Shown here: one piece after another, positions 5,593-30,680 of the stretch
Layout of the letters: each line of letters begins with the position of its first letter
Position numbering within the stretch: position 1 is the first letter of the stretch
Origin: Lachnospiraceae bacterium
Lineage (GTDB): Bacteria; Bacillota; Clostridia; Lachnospirales; Lachnospiraceae
Length of the DNA stretch: 61,388 nt
Direction: 5' to 3'
NCBI GenBank assembly: GCA_015057085.1
Contig: SVFB01000098.1
Span: 1-61,388, forward strand
The notes under the pieces: generated by a model
Told to the model about the DNA's origin: nothing
The model's database searches: none
What the model saw: only the letters and a program-made list of their open reading frames with translations
Program-made: the position numbers and the translations under genes

Positions 5593-5722
5593 TTTATCTC
5601 AGTCGGAGTTACAATCTCCGACTGAGATAAACGCTCCGCGAGGATGCGCAGAGATTTGCATATGAAATATGTCAGCTATGCTGACGCAAATCTCGCGCCA
5701 AGTCTCGCGAGCGAGACTTGAA
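5593..5722 (+). repeat. Structured interspersed repeat, copy B (complete, 130 bp)
   Basis: Four helices can be drawn directly. P1: TTTATCTCAGTCGGAG/CTCCGACTGAGATAAA, 16 bp, 7-nt loop (5593-5631). P2: TCC-GCGA-GGA with a GNRA-type loop (5635-5644). P3: GCGC-A-GAGATTTGC paired with GCAAATCTC-GCGC (5646-5698), enclosing the hairpin GTCAGC-TAT-GCTGAC. P4: CAAGTCTCGC-GA-GCGAGACTTG (5699-5720). Copy C at 30551-30680 is 128/130 identical on the other strand. No open reading frame or T-tract follows, so it is not an ordinary terminator. Confidence 0.93.
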
Positions 5723-30550: not shown

Positions 30551-30680
30551 TTCAAGTCTCGCTCGCGAGACTTGGCGCGAGATTTGCGTCAGCGTAGCTG
30601 ACATATTTCATATGCAAATCTCTGCGCATCCTCGCGGAGCGTTTATCTCAGTCGGAGATTGTAACCCCGACTGAGATAAA
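30551..30680 (-). repeat. Structured interspersed repeat, copy C (complete, 130 bp)
   Basis: Reverse-strand copy of 5593-5722 with 2 differences in 130. One turns an A-U pair in P1 into G-U on the sense strand; the other is in the loop of the inner hairpin (TAT to TAC), so both keep the fold. It begins 1 nt after the stop codon of the tannase-like gene, in the sense of that transcript. Confidence 0.93.

Follow-up and report, generated by a model that had tools for sequence, protein, structure and literature searches.

Results

The window analysed here, i.e., the whole 61,388-nt stretch of contig SVFB01000098.1, belongs to the host genome (G000; 2.79 Mb, 128 contigs) and harbors two full-length copies, B and C, of a multi-hairpin repeat and the 3′ end of a third (Table 1), all at the coordinates where the sequence-only reading had placed them. 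Copy B is flanked by divergent genes for a histidine kinase and an ABC transporter; at copy C, the stop codon (30684-30682) of a 571-aa open frame is followed one base later by the target. The two copies show 2 differences over 130 positions when their target pentamers are included. The repeat had been described as a 130-bp element: its right edge stands, but its left edge does not, because the empty sites of other copies have the pentamer before insertion and TTTAT (5593-5597 and 30680-30676) is, therefore, target DNA and not element.

Table 1. Features of the repeat copies in the window (G and L numbers in the text denote genomes and loci).
Feature	Coordinates	Strand	Remark
3′ end of third copy, cut at contig end	1..36	+	exact 36-nt recurrence
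Target pentamer TTTAT of copy B, host DNA	5593..5597	+	pentamer pre-exists in other copies' empty sites
Copy B, full-length short form, subfamily A, 125 nt	5598..5722	+	
Left-end hairpin H1, CTCAGTCGGAG / CTCCGACTGAG, extended by target:guide pairing	5598..5626	+	
Guide pentamer ATAAA, complement of target pentamer	5627..5631	+	
Core hairpin CGCTCC-GCGA-GGA-(T bulge)-GCG	5632..5648	+	
Branched helix P2, 9 bp, 11-nt bulge on 5′ strand, inner hairpin H3 (5671-5685)	5651..5694	+	class I covariation
Right-end hairpin H4, CAAGTCTCGC-GA-GCGAGACTTG	5699..5720	+	
Copy C, full-length short form	30551..30675	-	
Target pentamer TTTAT of copy C, host DNA	30676..30680	-	

From left to right, the element is composed of H1, the guide pentamer, the core hairpin, P2 with H3, and H4. 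It begins with CTCAGTC and finishes with CTTGAA in subfamily A (ending at 5722 in copy B) or CTTGAC in subfamily B, with no terminal inverted repeats, and no hairpin resembling the bulged-T one on the left was recognised at the right end. As first read, it has no open reading frame of its own and folds into several hairpins: the z-score is -10.7 as DNA and -9.9 as RNA, and 0 of 200 shuffles were as good in each case. These scores, together with the genome copies against none in the reversed control, rule out a chance palindrome. On its own, the core 17-mer adopts a hairpin containing a single bulged T, although 28 of 200 shuffles fold equally well; its invariance is partly a product of selection because core bases served as the search pattern, and loop variants with GAGA or GCGG replacing GCGA exist. 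Of the 47 short forms (A and B together), 43 are 125 nt long. Another 12 copies are long forms of 160-187 nt (181-187 nt in 11 of the 12), which carry an extra hairpin and, in most cases, a second H1 left arm between the same two ends. The P2 bulge spans 9-11 nt across the family. In class I, P2 and H3 covary, with several pair types at most positions, in a parse that resolved 10 of 20 representatives, G374 among them unconvincing, while the 10 missed include most of class II. RNAalifold on a plain MAFFT alignment recovered the invariant core only and no covariation, and a folding-strand test with wobble pairs gave 4 versus 8. Several class II right ends resemble a hairpin followed by a T-run.

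The repeat is dispersed through the chromosome, as the sequence-only reading had proposed. An 18-nt core (at most one mismatch) has 70 matches in G000 and the 22-nt 3′ end (at most three mismatches) has 54, two of them overlapping in one copy; both reversed controls gave 0. The insertion in unrelated sites noticed in the window extends to the genome, where flanks are unrelated from copy to copy and many copies are at about 98% identity. Because G000 copies are many and their flanks unrelated, segmental duplication as the only source is excluded. With the 130-bp query (E up to 1e-3), 5 of 60 genomes matched, namely G000 and 4 of 35 other members of the genus, and 0 of 24 genomes from other families of the order. 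The exact 17-nt core was found patchily in 42 of 397 genomes sampled from the larger bacterial family (control 0), reaching a maximum of 67 copies in G000, followed by G186 (52), G094 and G450 (35 each); G387, G410 and G279 carry 17, 8 and 6. The hairpin layout recurs with different stems in the loci read, one from each of 30 of the 42 core-bearing genomes, although a number of these copies are degraded. In a core search within the genus, 3 of 12 genomes (G013, G065 and G082) had matches only in sequence that lacks the hairpins of the element. Subfamily B is near-identical in G000, G064, G186, G418, G462, G222 and others, in several genera, a sign of recent transfer.

No match at the Rfam gathering threshold was found in the window or in seven element loci, which sets aside a known Rfam family; at a lax threshold, six loci gave weak matches only. 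A plasmid- or phage-borne repeat was likewise rejected: plasmid and phage collections gave no match to the element, and the four core matches in viral contigs all lie in sequence devoid of its hairpins. Neither the core string nor a description of the family was found in the literature searched, subscription papers being outside its scope. Composite arrangements were also seen. In L055 (G000 C30, cores at 117876 and 118122), a subfamily B and a subfamily A copy stand in tandem, about 0.25 kb apart and in the same orientation. A composite present in G000 as well as G064 joins a truncated subfamily A right end to an element of a different type in reverse orientation (L054/L178, 1-200; L335, G064 C12).

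G000 and G064 together hold 85 distinct copies, of which the 59 with both edges usable were aligned to define the boundaries. The left edge lies right after TTTAT (A) or TTTAA (B), and the base following the right edge is T or C in 38 of 44 subfamily A and 11 of 15 subfamily B copies. Joined flanks of G000 copies were then sought in G064, a sister species of the same genus, at 30 sites (part of this search scored four candidates per genome). Four of the 30 yielded usable empty junctions. The one of L128 is perfect to the base: the G064 site ...CCGTTTTAA^TCTGTAGG... equals the joined G000 flanks at the junction, with TTTAA kept, and the same junction, also given as GATTGGACCGTTTTAA^TCTGTAGGAGC, has nothing duplicated or lost. 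At L045 (TTTAA) and L127 (GATTAT), the G064 sites are element-free and the target is intact, with diverged right sides; at L028, the empty site is imperfect and fits TTTAT less cleanly. In both L128 and L045, the TAA of the target pentamer is the end of the upstream open frame. Alignment gave no clean junction for L006, L011, L018, L014, L005, L142, L143, L058 and L060, and no empty site was found in G064 for copies B and C of the window (L001 and L008); the remaining sites either lacked a match in G064 or fell outside the alignments. The pentamer is the target and is present before insertion. Target-site duplications, for which the earlier reading had proposed a search, are absent in full-length copies and occur only in the truncated L053 and L060; in the 19 full-length copies of G450, no word longer than 9 is common to both flanks.

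The pentamer 5′ of the core hairpin reads as the reverse complement of the target. We tallied guide and target over the usable copies of 13 genomes after setting aside 23 copies, of which 9 had no guide context, 9 no outer arm and 4 no left end, and 1 stood at a contig end. Copies with guide ATAAA sit exactly at TTTAT in 79 of 97 cases, those with TTAAA at TTTAA in 33 of 36, and those with ATATA at TATAT in 7 of 7; the single ATTAA copy sits at TTAAT, and the single AAAAA copy has no matching target. Crossed pairs are absent, with 0 of 97 ATAAA copies at TTTAA and 0 of 36 TTAAA copies at TTTAT, and two of the 97 ATAAA copies sit at TTAAT. Two chimeras separate guide from body: L045 has a subfamily A body with the B-type guide TTAAA and sits at TTTAA, and L127 has a subfamily B body with the A-type guide ATAAA and sits at ATTAT. 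Judging from these sequences, the guide, rather than the remaining element, appears to set the target. In class II (G034 and G375), the pairing looks about 10 bp long, often with a terminator T-run. As the empty sites come only from other copies, part of this long target:guide stem may belong to the element. G375 L262-L269 show copy-specific matched stems entering terminator T-runs, through either long guide:target pairing or compensating change.

With genes taken as long open frames, copies are frequently found at gene ends, 31 of 59 lying within 20 nt of a stop codon pointing at them; copy B of the window is an exception. A hairpin ends within 14 nt upstream of the target in 16 of 58 insertions versus 15 of 115 controls (Fisher p 0.02), the control being other non-coding TTTAW sites; in G450, such a hairpin precedes 13 of 22 insertions. 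Replication-strand bias was not detected in the single-contig genome G401, where the best fit over all origins was 15 of 24 against a random mean of 16.3. The strand partition of G034 reached 13 of 14 (random mean 10.1, P 0.018), for which gene direction and terminators are a possible cause. By eye, about 100-330 nt upstream of the long-form copy at L046, there is a repeated tRNA-gene-like stretch with terminators. Four G450 loci (L313, L317, L374 and L389) have right flanks that open with a similar further repeat, in which CCATTACAAGCA or CCACTTCAAGCA precedes CCCCC; this may be another element family or a favoured neighbour.

Truncated copies mostly lack the left part. In G000, seven right ends occur without a core and keep 42-63 nt with an intact 3′ end. 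Of the 50 right-end matches in G450, 23 lack a core in their vicinity, and all 23 were read; conversely, the 11 core matches without the right-end pattern comprise 4 3′-truncated copies and others with base changes at the right end. The right-end list was used for G450 only, the pattern being one base too long for most copies of G401 and G252. The tally was restricted to breaks located between core and right end, a region in which either kind would be detected: G450 has 19 5′-truncated against 4 3′-truncated copies (18 if L316 is an internal deletion), and subfamily A of G000 has 7 against 0. Together, this is 26 versus 4 (p 6e-5), or 25 versus 4 (p 1e-4). The 19 leave out L311, cut at a contig end, and L306, L309 and L323, broken inside or at the core; two 3′-truncated, B-like copies of G000 (L134 and L140) were left out because the comparison covers 5′-truncated copies of subfamily A. 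The right end is present in the truncated copies by selection, as it was the search handle. Among 15 copies read in G401, there is one break of each kind. Two truncated G000 copies have duplications: L053, of 20 bp, with two bases common to the element and a single occurrence in G064, and L060, of 16 bp, with five bases common to the element and six bases off its end. The other five truncated G000 copies have no flank-shared word beyond 7 bases, and no duplication was seen in the 22 truncated G450 copies for which a left flank is available, their mean longest shared word being about that of mismatched pairs.

Our searches for a mobilising enzyme covered three families, and none is in every carrier: Y1, RVT_1 and domain V are each missing in some. 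The Y1 family (PF01797) is present in 12 of 17 carriers and 3 of 6 non-carriers, and absent in carriers G094, G450, G387, G279 and G410, some assemblies being incomplete. The element has palindromes near its ends, yet no IS605-type element matching it was found: the strict core pattern is in none of the 30 Y1 loci fetched, out of 58 PF01797 matches, within the stretch fetched. Flanks were viewed for 15 Y1 loci, and the frame displayed was not the transposase in 9 of these. G000 and G064 have a single PF01797 match each, of RAYT type, in frames of 263 and 258 aa. RVT_1, searched in 14 carriers and 4 non-carriers, is absent in carriers G000, G410, G387 and G094. Group II domain V (E 1e-3) is absent in 4 of 15 carriers (G064, G305, G387 and G410) and falls below the gathering score in G000, G450 and G279. 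The group II intron at G450 L357 is divergent and contains a reverse transcriptase frame of 432 aa; the 3′ region of this intron has GAGACTTGAAC, like the 3′ end of the element, a likeness that may be chance. Such gaps could reflect loss once the element had spread, incompletely assembled genomes or an enzyme that escaped recognition.

Beside the RAYT-type Y1 gene of G000 and G064 stands a different palindromic repeat, of the GGGGACGG type. The Y1 gene is followed by an aldolase-like gene, and the palindromes beside it (L178, G000 C26, 1371-1425; L177, G064, 1124-1180 and 2256-2333) look like a REP family of its own.

Discussion

The element is mobile. It inserts at an exact point beside a target that was already there, guide and target agree even in two chimeras, and it has spread across genera. 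The sequence-only reading had offered a non-autonomous mobile element, a transcript-end protector or a structured RNA, and the first of these options is supported by the many copies at about 98% identity, the empty sites, the presence of near-identical subfamily B in several genera and the lack of an open reading frame. A role as transcript-end protector might suit the 31 of 59 copies that face a nearby stop codon, but copy B lies between two divergent genes. The element may also act as a structured RNA, as P2 and H3 covary in class I, although wobble pairs gave only 4 versus 8 in the folding-strand test.

The account that we favour, and hold to be somewhat probable, is that the elements form a non-autonomous, non-coding family, select their target through base pairing and move by single-strand DNA transposition in trans. 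The guide pentamer, directly 5′ of the bulged-T core hairpin, would pair with the T/A-rich target pentamer. The element would then be joined 3′ of this pentamer, which would stay in the left flank, so that full-length insertions would duplicate nothing. Folded single-stranded DNA would be cut and joined by a Y1 (HUH) single-strand transposase acting in trans, whether at present or in the past, as in IS200/IS605 elements and the palindrome-associated transposable elements (PATEs) derived from them. We hold this DNA route to be the likeliest because the insertion rule is that of IS200/IS605 and the kind of element is closest to PATEs. Against it stand the absence of a cognate Y1 among the 30 loci fetched, the carriers without a PF01797 match, the missing strand bias in G401 and a right end at which no bulged-T hairpin was recognised; the excess of 5′-truncated copies is not expected of single-strand transposition either.

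The likeness to known systems is extensive but incomplete. According to excerpts of PMC5934647, IS608 inserts 3′ of a tetranucleotide that is kept in the left flank, its guide lies 5′ of the hairpin base, and an altered guide resets the target. Our element shares with IS608 and ISDra2 the insertion 3′ of a fixed target kept on the left, the guide 5′ of a hairpin and the absence of duplication (PMC5934647 and PMC7290912, excerpts). In contrast to IS608, the target:guide helix continues into H1 and seems to reach about 10 bp in class II, versus four bases in the wild type. Unlike IS200/IS605 members, the element has no transposase gene, and it shows no strand bias in G401, whereas single-strand transposition of IS608 and ISDra2 favours the lagging strand (PMC6006769, excerpt). 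PATEs, as portrayed in part of PMC3119063, have no terminal inverted repeats, carry near-terminal palindromes, leave no target duplication and are too short for a transposase; those of Haloquadratum reach many copies, with insertions despite the IS200-type transposons of one strain all being pseudogenes (PMC3119063 and PMC7290912, excerpts). Our element resembles the PATEs of Haloquadratum and Halanaerobium in being short and non-coding, with near-end palindromes, no terminal inverted repeats and no target duplication (same excerpts). It differs from them in that no IS605-type parent with matching ends was found, and in its several helices with a conserved core, its cross-genus guide:target agreement and its many 5′-truncated copies. 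It works like an IS200/IS605 or PATE member, but we do not file it as one because no parent or cognate transposase was found. A DDE-type MITE was rejected on the absence of terminal repeats and of duplications in full-length copies.

The main rival is an RNA route, ranked so because of the truncated copies, the lack of strand bias in G401 and the hairpins next to insertions. The element would be transcribed, its RNA guide would pair with the target, and a reverse transcriptase supplied in trans would start copying at its 3′ end, which would leave incomplete copies without their 5′ portion, akin to a SINE analogue or to trans-mobilised group IIC introns. We judge it unlikely, though to be taken seriously: it would accommodate the 26 versus 4 (or 25 versus 4) truncations and the duplications of 20 bp at L053 and 16 bp at L060, as well as the unbiased strands of G401. 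The upstream hairpins (16 of 58 versus 15 of 115; 13 of 22 in G450) also recall group IIC introns, which insert at terminators; excerpts of PMC4424553 describe how group II introns find the 5′ target through pairing and how common their truncated copies are in bacteria. The element is thus like group IIC introns in its 5′-flank target pairing, its insertion at terminators and its truncated copies (PMC4424553, excerpt), but it has neither domain V nor a reverse transcriptase gene and is not an intron. A group II intron derivative was rejected on the same lack of domain V and on the absence of introns from some carriers. Against the RNA route, RVT_1 is missing in G000, G410, G387 and G094 and domain V (E 1e-3) in 4 of 15 carriers. 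The 22 truncated G450 copies are free of duplication, G401 has one break of each kind, the right end of truncated copies is present by selection, and 5′ parts may have been deleted later. It is a rather improbable idea that the family is the bacterial counterpart of a SINE, i.e., a guide-bearing RNA of 125-187 nt that is reverse-transcribed in trans, crosses genera and leaves 5′-truncated copies.

Another reading is a REP-like family that depends on the single-copy RAYT-type Y1 of G000 and G064, the sole PF01797 match of each genome; a single-copy TnpAREP with dispersed REPs is a known pattern (PMC8266576, excerpt). The Y1 gene of G000 is preceded, at about 0.4 kb, by an element pair, and the 283-aa one of G093, also at about 0.4 kb, by an element-like remnant. 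Like REPs and REPINs, our element is a dispersed hairpin repeat outside genes, and a trans-acting Y1 is conceivable; however, it measures 125-187 nt against 20-40 for a REP, and no GTAG/CGTC tag was recognised at the foot of its hairpins (the + strand of both subfamilies, A and B, contains neither tag, while the complements occur within subfamily A). We find this reading quite unlikely, given that the gene is adjoined by the other, GGGGACGG-type palindrome in G000 and G064, that no core was found near the Y1 gene in G064 or G476 and that frames of RAYT length occur in only 5 of 17 carriers. TnpB-type elements carry a T-rich motif on their left and a conserved, structured stretch on their right. 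In outline, the T-rich motif on the left and the structured right end of our element might fit a remnant of this type (IS1341/IS605), in which the multi-hairpin part would be a guide-RNA scaffold and TTTAT/TTTAA a transposon-adjacent motif; no transposase-like frame was seen by eye among the frames beside 13 copies, and we consider such an origin very doubtful. Most improbable of all is an ordinary family of fixed regulatory RNAs or terminators that became numerous by chance. Frequent proximity to stop codons and hairpins, and several class II right ends that resemble a hairpin with a T-run, would suit it, but it is contradicted by the empty sites, and also by the patchy distribution and a subfamily B that is near-identical across genera.

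The DNA route stays our preferred reading, and what moves the element can be tested. The family itself is real: a mobile, guide-carrying, non-coding element family of one bacterial family, with no description found in the literature searched. It would amount to a programmable inserter of very small size that occurs naturally in a widespread bacterial family, where five bases of the element appear to set the target and two natural guide swaps are consistent with retargeting. Its existence opens two questions to direct testing: what moves PATE-like elements when no transposase remains, and whether bacteria can retropose short non-coding RNAs. It also explains assembly breaks, as a number of G000 and G064 contigs end in the element, and it serves as a marker of gene exchange between the genera of the family.
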